This document shows positions 3,657-63,802 of a DNA stretch of 64,000 nucleotides, piece after piece. Source of the stretch: a virus. The stretch covers positions 1 to 64,000 of the IMG/VR virus record IMGVR_UViG_3300021961_000070; one strand, 5' to 3'. A model generated the notes under the pieces. The model was not told where the DNA came from. It did not search any database and saw nothing but the letters and a program-made list of their open reading frames with translations. The translations under genes were made by a program, and so were the position numbers. Position 1 is the stretch's first letter. Each line of letters starts with the position of its first letter.

Positions 3657-6600
3657 ACTGTTATTAGACTTCTCATTGCTTTAAATGTAGTTGTTGTTCC
3701 ATTTACTGGTGTAGCCAATATTCTGAATTGACCAGTAACTATCGAAGCATCAAATGTTGCAAGAGAGGTTCCAGTTTTTATTTCGCCATATTGAGCCAGA
3801 TAAACTGTAGTATCATCATGAACGAAACTTAGTTCAATTACATGATATGCTGTACCATTTGTAATTTGAATGAAGTATTTTCCAGAACGATAAGTCGATG
3901 CGCTGAAAAAATCCAAAATAAATTGTGATGTACTCGAAACTGATTGCTGAGTTGATTTAATATCTAATGATGTATTAACAGTAACATTGGTATTTGCAAC
4001 AAGTGAGGAACCCGTTAATGTTGAACTTGTAGTCAAAGCACCAGTCATTGTATCGCCAGCTTTTGCTACTTTTGCAATATTTACCGCACCAACATTAGCT
4101 TGATATCCATTAGTGACTATAATAAGACCAGCACCAACATTAGCCTCATAATTAGCCTTGGTTGTTATAAGGCCGGCACCAACGTTAGCTTCATAATTGG
4201 CCTTGGTTGTTATAAGTCCGGCGCCTACATTGGCTTGACTTGCCGCGGTATCGGCGATTCTGGCAGCACCAACATTTGCTTGATATGCATTCGTAACCGT
4301 TATAAGACCAGCACCGACATTGGCTTGAGATGTGGTTTGTATTGTATTCGCATAATCAAGAGGATCTAATCCTCTCAGCGTAATTACATTCGTTATAATA
4401 TTAGCACTTAAAGTTGCAACTCTTGTATTAGCAATATCAATAGTATTACCAGGTTCAGTTCCTGGTTTGTAACTGTCAAATAGGTAATATCTACCATCTG
4501 TAAATTTACGAATTAAACCAGTATGATTATTTGGTGTATTTGCATAATGACCAACAAAACCAATATCTAAAGTATCGGTTAGATTTTCAACACCAAGTTG
4601 AATAATCGTATCAGTGACTTTAAGTGATGAAACATTAATTGTTGTTGTATTGCCGGTAATTACAAGATTGCCAGTTATAGACAAGTCTCCAGAAATAGTT
4701 CCGCCAGTCTTATCAAGTTTTGTTAATAATCCAGCACCAACATTAGCCTCATAGTTAGCTTTTGTTGTTATAAGTCCGGCGCCAACATTGGCATCAGAAT
4801 CTAATTTATTTGAAATTAAACCTGCACCAACATTAGCCTCATAGTTAGCTTTTGTTGTTATAAGTCCGGCACCAACGTTGGCTTGCCCTGCTGCGGTATC
4901 AGTTATTCTTGCGGCACCAATATTTGCATAAAGACTATTGATATTATTGGTTAGATCGGTTCTAACACTTATTAAACCAGCACCGACGTTGGCTTGATAT
5001 GCGCCAGTAACCGTAATAAGTCCAGCACCGACGTTGGCTTGATATGCGCCAGTAACCGTAATGAGTCCAGCACCGACGTTGGCTTGACTTGCCGCAACAT
5101 CGGTAATCCTAGCAGAACCAACATTAGCATAAAGATCATTAACATTATTAGTTAAATCGGTTCTAACACTTATTAAACCAGCACCAACGTTAGCTTCATA
5201 ATTGGCCTTGGTTGTTATAAGTCCGGCGCCTACATTGGCTTGACTTGCCGCGGTATCGGCGATCCTGGCAGCACCGACATTGGCGTAGAGAGCATCTACA
5301 TCACCAAATAACTCTGCAATATCAACCTTTAAACTTATTAAACCGGCACCGACGTTGGCTTCCGAAACTGCTTTTGCCGATAACAATCCAGCACCAACGT
5401 TGGCTTGCGCCGCTGCGGTATCAGTTATTCTGGCCGCACCAACATTAGCGTAGAGAGCATCGACATTATTCGTTAAATCGGTTCTTACTGATATTAGTCC
5501 AGCGCCTACATTGGCTTGTCCAGAAGCAACATCAGCAATTCTAGCGGCACCAACATTAGCATATAGAGCATTGATGTTGTTGGTTAGATTAGTTGAAATT
5601 AGTAATAAACCAGCTCCAGTATTTCCTTGATGCCAAGTATTTGCAGTATCGGTATAATTTTTTGCATCAATTAATGCCGCACCAGTATTTGCTTGGCCTG
5701 ATGTAACATCCGTAATTCTAGCGGCACCAATGTTTGCATAAAGATTATTAACGTTATTGGTTAGATCAGTTCTAACATCAATCAAACCAGATCCAACATT
5801 AGCTTGGCTAGCCGCAACATCCGTAATTCTAGCGGCACCAATGTTTGCATAAAGATTATTAACGTTATTGGTTAGATCGGTTCTTACTGATATTAGTCCA
5901 GCGCCGACATTAGCCTGAGATGCATTCGTGACTGCTATATCTCCGGCGCCTACGTTAGCAGTTGTCGCAATTATGTATTGATCGGTATTATCTTTTAAAA
6001 CCCAATAATCATTCGTTTCATCATAGCGAATGTATACGTTTGAACCACCTCTATTGACAGTTATTCCTGCATTTTGAGTTGGAGTAACTCCTTCTTGCCA
6101 ATTTGAATTTAAAATAATTTCATTATCAGAAACATTTAATTCTGTAGTATTAATTGAAGTTACATTTCCTGTTACCGACAGATTGCCAGTGATTGTAACA
6201 TCACCACTTACCGTTCCACCAGATGAACTAAATCTTGTGTTAGCAAAATTATAAGCTGAATTTGCCCAAGAATATGCTAGATTTGCTTGATCAAAAGAAG
6301 AATTTGCTAAATCGGAAATACCTTTTAATCCAGGCGAATCTGAATTTGGTAAAACTAGATCGGTCGCTCCAGCAATAGAAATAGTACCTGATGTATTTCC
6401 TAATACTATACCACCAAGATTTATGGAACCTGGACCAACATAAATTGAATGCCAACGATTTGTTTCTGATCCGAGAAAGTAAACGTTATCAGTAGTCGGA
6501 AGAACATTTCCTGTAATATCGAGATTACCAGAAATTGTTCCGCCCGTTTTAGGTAAGAAAGTATTATCTGTATAATTTTTTAGATTAGTATTGGCTACAT

Positions 6601-44160: not shown

Positions 44161-44697
44161 TTATGCCAAAATAAATTTTTCTTTATTAATTCTTTCGTAT
44201 CTATTTCTATAAAATATGTGTTGTCCTATTTGACTAGTTTTTTGTAATTTCCATCTCGGATTAACTCTGACGGAATGAAAATGTGTGGCTCCTTTGGAAA
44301 CATCTTCTATAAAATGATAATAAACCGCAAGAAACACTGCCAAATCCAAGATATCATTATACAATGAAGTGGATCTTATTGTCAACCTTTTCTTAGCAGT
44401 GGTTGGATCACAATACCAAGAAAATTGACAAATTCCTCTTATCTTTTGATGTACAACTCCGCAAACTGTATTTGGATAGTTTCCTGTTGAAACGCGATTT
44501 AGTGTGACAAATCCAACAGCCATTTTGCCGTTATGAGATTCGCTGGCTGCTTCAAAATAGATGTTATCTGCTAAACATACGACCTGCTTCTGCGCTTCTG
44601 CGGTAAGATCCCTGAAGAGAATCGTATTTGGTATAGCGTAAACGTTTTTCACTATAAGCATAAAAAAAATCACACTAAGAAAAGTTAAACTTTTCAT
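44161..44697 (-). CDS. SleB-type cell wall hydrolase with signal peptide
   Basis: 178 residues. Residues 1-22 form a signal peptide (MKSLTFLSVIFFMLIVKNVYA). The Hydrolase_2 (SleB/CwlJ) core follows: VVCLADNIYFEAASESHNGKMAVGFVTLNRVSTGNYPNTVCGVVHQ, CQFSWYCD, and THFHSVRVNPRWKLQ. The Glu of YFEA (~49) is the catalytic residue of the family. It is likely the endolysin, exported by the host Sec system, which would avoid the need for a classical holin. RBS AGGAGG lies 6-7 bases before the ATG. It is the first gene after the tmRNA. Confidence 0.85.
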   Translation of the reverse strand: MKSLTFLSVIFFMLIVKNVYAIPNTILFRDLTAEAQKQVVCLADNIYFEAASESHNGKMAVGFVTLNRVSTGNYPNTVCGVVHQKIRGICQFSWYCDPTTAKKRLTIRSTSLYNDILDLAVFLAVYYHFIEDVSKGATHFHSVRVNPRWKLQKTSQIGQHIFYRNRYERINKEKFILA

Positions 44698-44718
44698 TTG
44701 ATACCTCCTAGTAGTGAT

Positions 44719-45062
44719 GGTGGGTTATTCTGTTACGAGGAAACCCACCGAAACCCTAAGCCGTGTTTAGGCGGCTAATGCAAAGATTTCTTCATTTGCG
44801 TTTATTGAATTTACTTTTTACGACTCTCTGTGTCGGATCGTCCATGTCTCTACTTATTGCCCTGTCGAAACCAGGTCAGGCCCATTAGTAAACTCTCTGC
44901 GATACTCGAAATCACGGTGACCCTACTTCCTGGCTGGTTCTTGCTTTAGTCGACTTTGGCAAGTGTTGCAGTTGTTCCAGTGTAGTCACTCAAAGAGTTT
45001 ACTGGTGGACCTGGGCGGAATCGAACCGCCGTCCAGAACACCTTTCGATCTACTTCATACGA
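44719..45062 (-). ncRNA. ssrA: Circularly permuted (two-piece) tmRNA, tag ANEEIFALAA
   Basis: On the minus strand the 3' (acceptor) piece comes first: T-arm GGCGG-TTCGATT-CCGCC (45014-45030), acceptor strand CAGGTCC, A, CCA (45003-45013). After a 119-base segment the 5' end begins at 44883 with GGGCCTGACCTGGTTTCGAC. GGGCCTG pairs with CAGGTCC over 7 bp and gives the G3-U70 pair that makes tmRNA a substrate of alanyl-tRNA synthetase. The tag frame at 44799-44767 reads ANEEIFALAA then TAA, aligning residue for residue with ANDENYALAA of E. coli, and is followed by a stop-containing hairpin (CCTAA/TTAGG). A strong stem (44719-44749) marks the probable 3' end of the coding piece. The 5' end of the acceptor piece is approximate. 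Confidence 0.92.
44884..45002 (-). ncRNA. Structured segment removed from the tmRNA precursor (element A)
   Basis: It lies between CCA of the acceptor piece and the 5' end of the coding piece. Its ends pair perfectly over 9 bp (44888-44896 with 44994-45002). Inside are GTGAC/GTCAC (44985-44989 with 44917-44921), CTGG/CCAG, CTTGC/GCAAG and a T-loop-like hairpin GTGAT-TTCGAGT-ATCGC (44899-44915). It can be aligned along its whole length with element B at 62828-62951 in the tRNA array, with base-pair changes that keep the helices. Confidence 0.75.
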
Positions 45063-45077
45063 TCATAGCTTTATTTA

Positions 45078-45266
45078 TTACCACCAACCTTTAGAATCTG
45101 TTCTTCCATAAAAACAATGACCAACCATTTCTCTACCTTTTAGTTCATATTCTTTTCTTTTAGCAATCAGTGCTTTCTGACAATCTTCTTTAGTCTCAAA
45201 TTTAGCGATTCTTGAATGTTCAGGATTGGTACCTAATAATGTGATGGATAATATCCAAACCCACAT
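45078..45266 (-). CDS. Small hypothetical protein with N-terminal hydrophobic segment
   Basis: 62 residues: a hydrophobic start (MWVWILSITLLGTN) that could be a signal or anchor, then EHSRIAKFETKEDCQKALIAKRKEYEL and a C-terminus with Cys and Trp (HCFYGRTDSKGWW). The F-x-T-x-E-x-C-x-x-A-L pattern resembles many tiny phage and bacterial secreted proteins. It lies 4 bases after the 2OG oxygenase gene and just upstream of the tmRNA. No function recognised. Confidence 0.55.
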   Translation of the reverse strand: MWVWILSITLLGTNPEHSRIAKFETKEDCQKALIAKRKEYELKGREMVGHCFYGRTDSKGWW

Positions 45267-60530: not shown

Positions 60531-61001
60531 TTAAGCTACTAAACTTTTCAATCTATCGGCTGCATATGAAGCCGCAAAAGCATTTGGTTTTACAAGAGGA
60601 ACAACATTACACATTCCTTTTATGTAGCCAATCGCCTCATTGATTACAATATTTGAATTATACTCTTCATTTGGATTGATGTCAAGATGAACTTCAATTT
60701 CAACATCAATCATTGCCGCTAATTCAAGATACATCTCGGCAACTTTATATACTTCATTCATCAATCGCATTCTTGGTTTATTTCGTGCTTGGTCATAATC
60801 ACGTTCACGAGTAATTTGACCGAAAATTTTACAACCATGCTTGCTGTTCATATGTACAACAATGGCTATAATATAATCCGCATGCCATACACCATTAATT
60901 TTAACTTTCTCAGAATCGCATCCAAGATAAACTTTGGTATTAGGACCACAACTATCGATGAATGCTTTCACTTCATTTAAATTAATTTTTTTGTTGTACA
61001 T
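60531..61001 (-). CDS. RNase H-like nuclease, YkuK/DUF458 family
   Basis: 156 residues. TKVYLGCDSEKVKINGVWHADYIIAIVVH (first Asp), RERDYDQARNKPRMRLMNEVYKVAEMYLELAA, IEVHLDINPNEEYNSNIVINEAIGYIKGM and KPNAFAASYAADRLK make up the RNase H-like fold of this family, with Asp/Glu/Asp metal ligands. Expected to act on RNA or DNA; in Bacillus the family is of unknown precise role. Lies between tRNA-Gly and tRNA-Trp, 2 bases from the former. Confidence 0.78.
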   Translation of the reverse strand: MYNKKINLNEVKAFIDSCGPNTKVYLGCDSEKVKINGVWHADYIIAIVVHMNSKHGCKIFGQITRERDYDQARNKPRMRLMNEVYKVAEMYLELAAMIDVEIEVHLDINPNEEYNSNIVINEAIGYIKGMCNVVPLVKPNAFAASYAADRLKSLVA

Positions 61002-61178: not shown

Positions 61179-61254
61179 TGGCCGGTCCTGAGAGAATCGA
61201 ACTCCCGTCTCCTCGTTCGTAGCAAGGGATTCTAATCCATTGAACTAAGGACCG
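61179..61254 (-). tRNA. tRNA-Arg(ACG)
   Basis: Acceptor CGGTCCT/AGGACCG, anticodon loop CTACGAA (ACG), T-loop TTCGATT, encoded CCA. Its 5' 23 bases overlap the end of the DUF3445-like gene on the same strand. Confidence 0.93.
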
Positions 61255-61972
61255 TTTTAATTTCTTTTAAATTTTTATATTGAATAATCGCATCACTCAT
61301 AGAATCAATACTCTCTTTAATTAGTGGTGACCAAACATTTTTTAATGGAACAACTTCAACTTTCACAAAAAACAAACTAGTCTTACCATCATTCAATGGT
61401 AATGTTGTTTGTTTCTCCAATCTAAAATAGAGATTATCGAATGTTAATTCTGCATCATCATAATTTTGTTTTACTTCAGGATGATTACTTAAATCTGGAA
61501 CTTTTGTAATAGTCCATACATATCTAAGAAAACTTCCTAGAATAGGATCTGCCATTGTCTTTGTAAGTTTCGAACTTACACGCCGAAGATGATCACCATC
61601 AGCCACAGGTCGGTGTATTTCTTCCAGTGTTTTGTCTAGACCGTAAAAAGGAATCCAAGAACTGGGAAAACAAAAACAAATTGCAGACAAAACACCATGG
61701 TGCATAATCGCAATATCTTCTTCAAAGTTCATTGCGAAATCTACGATATCACCAGTTACAGGTTTACCTAAAAAAGATTCACATTTTTCAATAACTTTTT
61801 CTGTAATGCAAGGTATATTCATACCATACAAATCATAACCAAATTTATCTAATTGAATTTTCTTCTCTTCAAAATATTTTTTATCGGGAGTTTTATTAAA
61901 AACTTCACCAGTATTTCGTATCATTCTTGGTTGTGTTGTATATGGTACTTTAACAATTTCGTCAATATTCAT
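61232..61972 (-). CDS. DUF3445-like haem-dependent oxidative N-demethylase family
   Basis: 246 residues from ATG 61972 (AGGAG 7 bases upstream); a longer frame would run into a tRNA. IVDFAMNFEEDIAIMHHGVLSAICFCFPSSWIPFYGLDKTLEEIHRPVADGDHLRRVSSKLTKTM is the core of the DUF3445 (HODM-type) family, in which the conserved H-x-P-V-(P/A)-D/G segment follows CFPSxW. Members bind haem and oxidatively demethylate amines. In a phage it might alter host nitrogen metabolism or modify a small molecule; no other haem or amine gene is seen here. Its last 23 bases lie within tRNA-Arg. Confidence 0.72.
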   Translation of the reverse strand: MNIDEIVKVPYTTQPRMIRNTGEVFNKTPDKKYFEEKKIQLDKFGYDLYGMNIPCITEKVIEKCESFLGKPVTGDIVDFAMNFEEDIAIMHHGVLSAICFCFPSSWIPFYGLDKTLEEIHRPVADGDHLRRVSSKLTKTMADPILGSFLRYVWTITKVPDLSNHPEVKQNYDDAELTFDNLYFRLEKQTTLPLNDGKTSLFFVKVEVVPLKNVWSPLIKESIDSMSDAIIQYKNLKEIKTVLSSMD

Positions 61973-61981
61973 AATATCTCC

Positions 61982-62056
61982 TGGTGGTTCAAAGTGGTAA
62001 CGCTCCACTCTCCTCGGCTTATGAAACCGGTACGCATCTTTCTACGTCATTGAACC
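61982..62056 (-). tRNA. tRNA-Met-like (CAU) with aberrant D- and T-loops
   Basis: 75 bases fold as a cloverleaf: acceptor GGTTCAA/TTGAACC, D-stem ACGT/GCGT, anticodon CGGT-TTCATAA-GCCG, T-stem AGTGG/CCACT, CCA encoded. The D-loop (AGAAAGAT) has no GG and the T-loop is AGCGTTA instead of TTCRANN, so the usual D-T loop contact is absent. Could be a degenerate or specialised tRNA. Confidence 0.7.
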
Positions 62057-62565: not shown

Positions 62566-62576
62566 GAAAAGGTATG

Positions 62577-62704
62577 GTTACCATCACCCGTTTAAGAGTC
62601 CTCTTGGACTCCCCTATTCTCCACTCCTCGTTGGCAAGACGTTCAATAGGGTTAAGTAGTCGCCCTGATGGTTGGGCGGATTTGCCATCATCAATTTTGC
62701 AGAA
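62577..62704 (-). ncRNA. Structured tRNA spacer with H-type pseudoknot (element E)
   Basis: On the minus strand TGATGG (62685-62690) pairs with CCATCA (62666-62671) and CGCCC (62674-62678) with GGGCG (62661-62665) in crossed order, an H-type pseudoknot. It is followed by a CCCTATT/AATAGGG hairpin (62612-62651) and a GAGTCC/GGACTC hairpin (62596-62611). No protein frame or tRNA fits. Confidence 0.55.
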
Positions 62705-62826
62705 CCATATTGAAACGCACTGAGATAACCGTGACCAGCGGGGCCTTTTTACATCTCTCTACAAGTATACGCACCAGGCAGTCACTCCTGTTCTGAGTAT
62801 ACTATCGATTATGCGCTTCAATATGG
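62705..62826 (-). ncRNA. Structured tRNA spacer closed by CATATTGAAAC stem (element C)
   Basis: Ends 62705-62719 and 62812-62826 pair over 15 bp with one G-U. Inside, AGTATAC/GTATACT (62764-62770 with 62797-62803) forms a hairpin whose loop base run GTGAC (62781-62785) can pair with GTCAC (62731-62735) outside it. Confidence 0.6.
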
Positions 62827-62827
62827 T

Positions 62828-62951
62828 CATATTGAAACATTCTGTGGCACTTGAATCCGCGATAGCCCCTCTTCACGGCTGATCCTTGCTTTGTCTAGAA
62901 TTGGCAAGCAATCAGTTGTTCCGCTGTAGCTACTCAGAATATTTCAATATG
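62828..62951 (-). ncRNA. Structured tRNA spacer homologous to the tmRNA insert (element B)
   Basis: Ends 62828-62844 and 62935-62951 pair over 17 bp with one G-U. The interior aligns base for base with the segment inside the tmRNA gene (44888-45002): shared GGAACAACTG, CTTGCC and AAAGCAAG, and helices whose pairs change together (GTGAC/GTCAC there, GTAGC/GCTAT here; CTGG/CCAG there, GCGG/CCGT here). Confidence 0.72.
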
Positions 62952-63026
62952 GTGCCCTCTCTCAGATTCGAACTGAGACTTTACGGCTTCTAAGACCGTC
63001 CTCTCTACCAATTGGAGTAAGAGGGC
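62950..63026 (-). tRNA. tRNA with UAG anticodon, class I shape (Leu by anticodon)
   Basis: Acceptor GCCCTCT/AGAGGGC, anticodon loop CTTAGAA in stem ACGGT/GCCGT, short variable loop, T-arm CTCAG-TTCGAAT-CTGAG, encoded CCA. UAG would read CUA (Leu), but bacterial Leu tRNAs have a long variable arm, as the Leu(UAA) copy at 59807 does. Confidence 0.8.
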
Positions 63027-63185: not shown

Positions 63186-63186
63186 G

Positions 63187-63275
63187 ATTAAGGGGCGCAA
63201 TTGGATGTCCTCTCGACATTCTTTTGCTGTCGTTTAAGACTGAGCGATGTTACTCGCTAGACCCCCATCTAAACT
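63187..63275 (-). other. tRNA-like structured spacer (element F)
   Basis: Between tRNA-Tyr and tRNA-Asp. GGGG (63262-63266 region) can pair with CCCC (63192-63195), enclosing hairpins GCGA/TCGC (63244-63257) and ATGTC-GAGAG-GACAT (63205-63219). The arrangement recalls a tRNA with D- and T-like arms, but no acceptable anticodon or TTC loop is present. Possibly a decayed tRNA. Confidence 0.4.
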
Positions 63276-63447: not shown

Positions 63448-63523
63448 TGGTGGGCCCAGTAGGTTTCGAACCTACGACCAATGAATTATGAGTTCACTGC
63501 TCTGACCTCTGAGCTATAGGCCC
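63448..63523 (-). tRNA. tRNA-Met(CAU), elongator type
   Basis: Acceptor GGGCCTA/TGGGCCC, anticodon loop CTCATAA in stem GTGAA/TTCAT, T-loop TTCGAAA, encoded CCA. Resembles the copy at 62488. Its 5' end touches the stem of element D. Confidence 0.93.
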
Positions 63524-63655
63524 ATATTGAAACACACTCGACCGTCTCTCTTTTACACAGCAGACCGGAGCGACCGGGGCTTGAACTGTTTATGCGATAT
63601 CCCGTTTTAAACCAGGGACGGACAAAGCGCCACAGTGTAAGTGTGTTTCAATATG
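63523..63655 (-). ncRNA. Structured tRNA spacer closed by CATATTGAAAC stem (element D)
   Basis: Ends 63523-63538 and 63640-63655 pair perfectly over 16 bp. It fills the gap between tRNA-Glu and tRNA-Met, so the stem would bring the two tRNAs together. Inside are TTACAC/GTGTAA, GTCCC/GGGAT and a CCGG-TCGCT-CCGG hairpin, and CCGTC can pair with GACGG across the second stem. Confidence 0.6.
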
Positions 63656-63728
63656 GTACACCGTACGAGAATCGAACTCGTCTTTCCAGCGTGAAAGGCT
63701 AGCGTCCTAACCGATAGACGAACGGTGC
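63654..63728 (-). tRNA. tRNA-Glu(UUC)
   Basis: Acceptor GCACCGT/ACGGTGT, anticodon loop CTTTCAC in stem CTAGC/GCTGG, T-loop TTCGATT, encoded CCA. First tRNA after the array promoter. Confidence 0.94.
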
Positions 63729-63774
63729 ATCGAACAACAGTTTTTAAAGAGCATTTACATCATCAACAGAATCT

Positions 63775-63802
63775 ATTATACAGATTCCACAAACTATGTC
63801 AA
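63775..63802 (-). promoter_or_regulatory. Consensus sigma70 promoter of the tRNA array
   Basis: -35 TTGACA (63797-63802), 16 bp spacer, -10 TATAAT (63775-63780) on the minus strand, both exact consensus. About 40 bases upstream of tRNA-Glu. Bases after -10 match those of the promoter at 55622-55649. Confidence 0.92.

Follow-up and report, generated by a model that had tools for sequence, protein, structure and literature searches.

Many different small RNAs share one closing helix in the tRNA arrays of uncultured T4-like phages

What occupies the gaps between tRNA genes in phage tRNA arrays, and why should gaps that differ in sequence begin and end alike? The question is raised by a stretch of virus DNA of 64,000 nucleotides (hereafter the window), which belongs to a virus record of 70.6 kb and whose baseplate region resembles that of T4-like phages (best match Pelagibacter phage HTVC008M, 72% over 249 bases). 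A minus-strand tRNA array (ARAGORN) occupies the right end of the window; in it, three RNA elements, B, C and D, are read in the same direction as the tRNAs and are closed by stems of 16-18 bp of the CATATTGAAAC type (Table 1). The original prediction that three stem-closed elements exist here was borne out: their arms, 16-17 nt long, are complementary, and the whole-element folds of B, C and D are more stable than all of their shuffled versions.

Only D fits exactly between two tRNAs: it starts at the CCA of tRNA-Glu, and base +1 of tRNA-Met serves as the last G of its stem. The CCA of tRNA-Leu is the starting point of C, which is followed by B, and no tRNA adjoins B. The suggestion that the stem joins two tRNAs thus holds only for a minority, the elements of the D type, since only 143 of 320 elements start at the CCA of a tRNA, only 46 of 320 end at base +1 of the next, and neither C nor B connects two tRNAs. 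The predicted fold of the D precursor contains the stem and both tRNAs next to one another, and at the abutting tRNA a CCA-UGG pairing would compete with the acceptor stem of the tRNA that follows. Homologues of D were found at 12 loci (86-100% identity), those of B at nine (80-100% identity) and those of C at four, one of them partial (the named loci are L168, L202 and L236). L168 is the same as the window in every stretch compared, and it alone shares with the window two unframed spacers that may also be structured.

Table 1. Promoter-like and boxA-like motifs, tRNA genes, framed elements and unframed spacers of the tRNA array in the window.
Feature	Position	Strand	Remark
-35-like TTGACA upstream of tRNA-Glu	63797..63802	-	sequence
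-10-like TATAAT upstream of tRNA-Glu	63775..63780	-	sequence
boxA-like motif GCTCTTTAAAAACTG before tRNA-Glu	63738..63752	-	3 mismatches to GCTCTTTAACAATTT
tRNA-Glu(ttc)	63654..63728	-	ARAGORN
Element D, framed RNA between tRNA-Glu and tRNA-Met	63523..63655	-	17 bp closing stem, fold z -3.9
D 5' arm of closing stem, overlapping CCA of tRNA-Glu	63640..63656	-	17 nt, complementary throughout to 3' arm, without G-U
D 3' arm of closing stem (63523 = base +1 of tRNA-Met)	63522..63538	-	17 nt, complementary throughout to 5' arm, without G-U
tRNA-Met(cat)	63448..63523	-	ARAGORN
Unframed spacer between tRNA-Tyr and tRNA-Asp, possibly structured	63186..63275	-	fold z -3.0; besides window only in L168
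tRNA-Leu(tag)	62950..63026	-	ARAGORN
Element C, framed RNA following tRNA-Leu	62828..62951	-	closing stem, fold z -3.7
C arms	62828-62844/62935-62951	-	17 nt, one G-U
Element B, framed RNA directly after C	62706..62825	-	closing stem, fold z -4.8
B arms	62704-62719/62812-62827	-	16 nt, one G-U
Unframed spacer between B and tRNA-Met, possibly structured	62566..62704	-	fold z -2.1, weak; besides window only in L168

Elements of this kind are not peculiar to the window: hundreds of framed small RNAs occupy the gaps of tRNA clusters in uncultured T4-like phages. Viral contigs contain 61 stretches with the exact pattern CATATTGAAAC-N70-100-GTTTCAATATG; tRNA genes are present in 60 of them, and the reversed-letter version of the pattern gave no match. 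When related phages were searched for similarly flanked spacers, with up to three mismatches allowed in the arms, the fetched loci yielded 346 framed elements in 163 loci of phage tRNA arrays, and the reversed-letter control yielded none in the same loci. Looser scans with Y/R in the arms had chance matches in coding DNA among the matches listed, and pairing and tRNA context served to sift them. Scans of 17 larger phage records over their full length showed that the arms nearly always form inward-facing pairs 50-140 bases apart. All element sequences come from uncultured phages, and their contigs may be fragments. About half of the elements have no recognised tRNA directly upstream. At some loci the RNA directly upstream of a framed element is a non-canonical tRNA-like one whose end is CCA or GCA (L213 near 7503, L177 before 6643, L092 before 7837 and L102 at 5564-5626).

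Outside this group the frame was not encountered. GTDB contained no match to the D core or to the frame pattern (84,980 genomes for the latter), and blastn against 50,697 phage records gave no match in cultured phages for D, B plus C, the cargo EL0 or the bare frame. Among cultured relatives with large tRNA arrays, a CCA-anchored stem follows none of 134 tRNAs. Relatives that keep the tRNAs and lack the stems, which the original prediction regarded as evidence against itself, do therefore exist; they indicate that the stems are dispensable for tRNA function and leave the frame unrefuted.

What is conserved in the frame is the helix rather than its letters. We compared 311 distinct arm pairs, picked by similarity to the consensus and not by pairing, with shuffles in which partners were dealt anew. 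Standard pairs made up 93.3% of positions against 83.3% in the shuffles, and double changes numbered 555 against 149. The wobble pattern is one-sided, with T opposite G on one strand only, and it agrees with the tRNA strand 156:0, supporting the earlier view that RNA, not DNA, is the form under selection. In a test independent of letters, which accepted any stem starting at the CCA of 1611 distinct tRNA 3' ends, a stem of 15-23 bp follows 149 of them, mostly with 17-21 pairs; shuffled sequences gave none in that range and none above 14 bp. The sequence is quite different in 24 of these 149 stems (e.g. CCATTTGTTTAGTGTTATCA). Moreover, when the cargo EL0 was sought by its interior alone, every complete copy proved to be stem-closed, several of them by stems of other letters, including a copy at L274 closed by the unrelated stem CCATAGTCAATAACATT; this count leaves out two copies cut by contig ends, and two copies misregistered by the script were read by eye. 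Within the frame, position 6 (the G of TTGAAAC; e.g. window 62711 and 63528) is the only stem position that often allows an A-C mismatch (35 of 311), and position 14 is preferentially U-G (226 of 311 arm pairs).

The same data bear on the possibility that the arms are DNA-level signals, namely the ends of mobile or exchangeable cassettes (MITE-like, attC-like or short recombination homologies), with the RNA stem as a by-product. Such signals would suit the one dominant arm sequence seen across many phages, as well as the occurrence of different interiors at the same site and of the same interior at different sites, but they are at odds with the strand-specific wobble pairs, with the replacement of the whole arm sequence in compensatory fashion and with the confinement of the elements to tRNA arrays, always on the tRNA strand. 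We consider this explanation improbable. The arms presumably also differ from integron attC core sites. A resemblance to CRISPR repeats or handles (ATTGAAAC) was rejected because the arms are inverted, not direct, and because frames without the ATTGAAAC letters have the same architecture.

There is strong support for the further prediction that one frame can be reused around different RNA cores. Elements of 55-140 nt enclose interiors of 25-125 nt, which under generous linking form about 160 clusters in one frame, 107 of them seen once, and the pairing of tRNAs with interiors varies both ways: in nine tRNA groups different interiors come after the same tRNA gene, and EL0 is found after at least seven kinds of tRNA. 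Loci L105 and L248 match almost completely through tRNA-Glu and tRNA-Lys, then diverge exactly at the CCA, one being empty and the other carrying an element. Judged by such comparisons, the interiors are interchangeable and have been swapped between phages.

By folding energy, interiors taken by themselves do not exceed random segments in stability, that of whole elements coming mostly from the frame. We therefore dropped fold energy as evidence for the cargo, and interior structure is established only where a family has enough members. In EL0 the inner helices covary, with 70 double changes against 15.6, and none of 500 shuffles reaches that number. A T-arm, mostly adjoining the frame, is present in 28 of 263 interiors, compared with 2 in shuffled controls, and one framed interior, at L219, lies above the Rfam tRNA threshold. 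These two observations would fit elements that are decayed tRNA genes with a paired leader and trailer, kept without function. Most interiors, however, have no T-arm and are not tRNA-like, and the covariation within EL0, the 86-100% identity of D in a dozen loci from different samples and the maintenance of the frame by compensatory change all argue against decay, which makes this origin very unlikely.

We propose that the helices are processing stems through which small structured RNAs are freed from tRNA precursors, a reading to which we assign a probability of roughly 45%. The elements would then be small RNA genes within the phage tRNA transcription unit, and the array would be transcribed from a leader with a σ70-like promoter and often a boxA-like antitermination site. 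Many arrays do start with a σ70-like TTGACA/TATAAT promoter together with a boxA-like motif that precedes a tRNA by a few bases. Class-wide, 66 boxA-like motifs lie on the array strand versus 7 on the other strand, and 36 of the 66 lie no more than 120 nt upstream of a tRNA, where reversed-letter controls gave none. The window shows the same arrangement ahead of tRNA-Glu, its boxA match being weaker. In the cultured phages tested, the boxA-like leader was absent save for two weak matches in L251.

BoxA is a mark of rRNA-type antitermination, and in bacterial rRNA operons RNase III stems surround 16S and 23S rRNA, with tRNAs in the precursor and boxA in the leader. The phage arrays are similar in that a long stem closes each RNA in a tRNA-bearing precursor headed by a boxA-like leader. 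They are different in that the cargo is not rRNA, the stem is shorter and anchored at the CCA, and the cleavage is a proposed one. Covariation and position indicate that a helix of about 17-21 bp closes each small RNA, often beginning at the upstream RNA's CCA. This helix would be cut, like the 16S and 23S rRNA stems, by a double-strand-specific RNase, most likely the RNase III of the host, freeing the 3' trailer of the upstream tRNA and releasing the interior as a separate structured RNA. The predominant stem length is about two helix turns, as expected of an RNase III processing stem. None of the 18 phage records contains an RNase III gene, so a host enzyme would have to act. Any RNA placed inside the stem would be released, which would make interiors interchangeable, and the short common frame may let phages swap them by recombination. 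We infer transcription, cleavage, release and stability of the cargo from sequence.

Several observations count against a processing stem: the letters of CATATTGAAAC are conserved beyond what a plain RNase III site needs, no recognised tRNA precedes about half of the elements, cultured relatives are stemless, the energy of the interiors is unremarkable, and the CCA-UGG pairing competes with an acceptor stem. The main rival holds that the helix is left uncut as the terminal clamp of a stable RNA, protecting it from exonucleases and preventing misfolding with neighbouring tRNAs, and that RNase P, acting at the next tRNA, and a 3' nuclease, acting at the CCA, separate the pieces where the helix ends. 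Because elements often begin exactly at the CCA and in some cases reach base +1 of the following tRNA, ordinary tRNA processing would indeed yield a blunt-ended hairpin RNA, and the position of the stem beside both folded tRNAs in the predicted D precursor also agrees with a clamp. Left unexplained by it are the narrow range of 17-21 bp and the presence of the same helix length in elements that touch no tRNA; we regard an uncut clamp as a serious though doubtful alternative to processing stems.

Small RNAs in phage tRNA clusters are already known (T4 species 1 and 2, GOLLD, ROOL and theta ribozymes), as are rRNA processing stems. Like the elements described here, the T4 species 1 and 2 stable RNAs (rnaC and rnaD) are structured RNAs, 119-139 nt long, that immediately follow a tRNA within a T4-type tRNA cluster, and rnaC shares with some interiors a T-arm near its 3' end. 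In contrast to the hyperdiverse set found here, they are two single RNAs with no common frame; T4 has no frame-like sequence, and a CCA-anchored long closing stem follows none of its eight tRNAs. Theta ribozymes are HDV-like, occur at the 3' ends of phage tRNAs that mostly lack an encoded CCA, in phages of gut Bacteroidota and Bacillota, and have been proposed to mature the 3' trailer (PMC10879173). They too are structured RNAs that sit precisely at the 3' ends of phage tRNAs, whereas here the CCA is encoded, the two ends of the element form a stem with one another and ribozyme families gave no match. GOLLD and ROOL are phage RNAs of unknown function often found near tRNA islands, with GOLLD often exceeding 800 nt (PMC12286853). 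Each of these families has one architecture of its own, unlike the many interiors of short elements in one frame.

In an Rfam comparison of the window, 15 related loci and T4, framed elements matched tRNA only, the other hits being weak chance matches and one group I intron outside any frame, and no ribozyme, GOLLD or ROOL model matched in the window or the related loci (for one scan, among the best 150 of 221 matches). Bacterial Y RNAs, including YrlA, likewise have both ends paired into a stem, with an interior that is sometimes tRNA-like. Rfam gave no YrlA match near threshold, and a TROVE/Ro60 gene was present in none of the 18 phage records; the host could supply Ro60. We found no description of such elements in the literature searched, which left most subscription journals and bioRxiv outside its coverage, and we know of no class that reuses one closing helix around many unrelated RNAs.

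Taken slightly further, and more tentatively than release by processing stems, the arrays may constitute an RNA cassette system, in which an interchangeable helical frame in rRNA-operon-like tRNA units with boxA leaders releases unrelated small RNAs, drawn from a very large pool, and exchanges them between phages, plausibly as an anti-defence arsenal. It is speculation that the released RNAs act as decoys or inhibitors against host RNA-targeting defences, a role that would fit their diversity. If processing stems are the correct reading, phage tRNA arrays would double as small-RNA gene arrays with a common release module, and the RNA types would be far from exhausted by the clusters in our sample. 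The frame would then also give a handle on the old question of what non-tRNA stable RNAs such as T4 species 1 and 2 do in phage tRNA clusters, supply a sequence signature for retrieving many more such RNAs from metagenomes, and could serve as a practical scaffold for releasing chosen RNAs.

Protein-coding genes also lie within these arrays. An RNase H-like protein (PF04308) is encoded at window 60531-61001, inside the tRNA array, and in or near the array in 12 of 18 element-bearing records; it was rejected as a specific partner of the elements because homologues also occur in arrays of cultured phages without stems. A protein like haem-dependent oxidative N-demethylase (PF11927) is encoded between tRNA genes at window 61232-62008. 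Two further RNAs were seen: an unframed group I intron match in a phage tRNA array (L175:4150-4348, Rfam) and, at window 44676-45095, a tmRNA gene with the tag ANEEIFALAA (ARAGORN).
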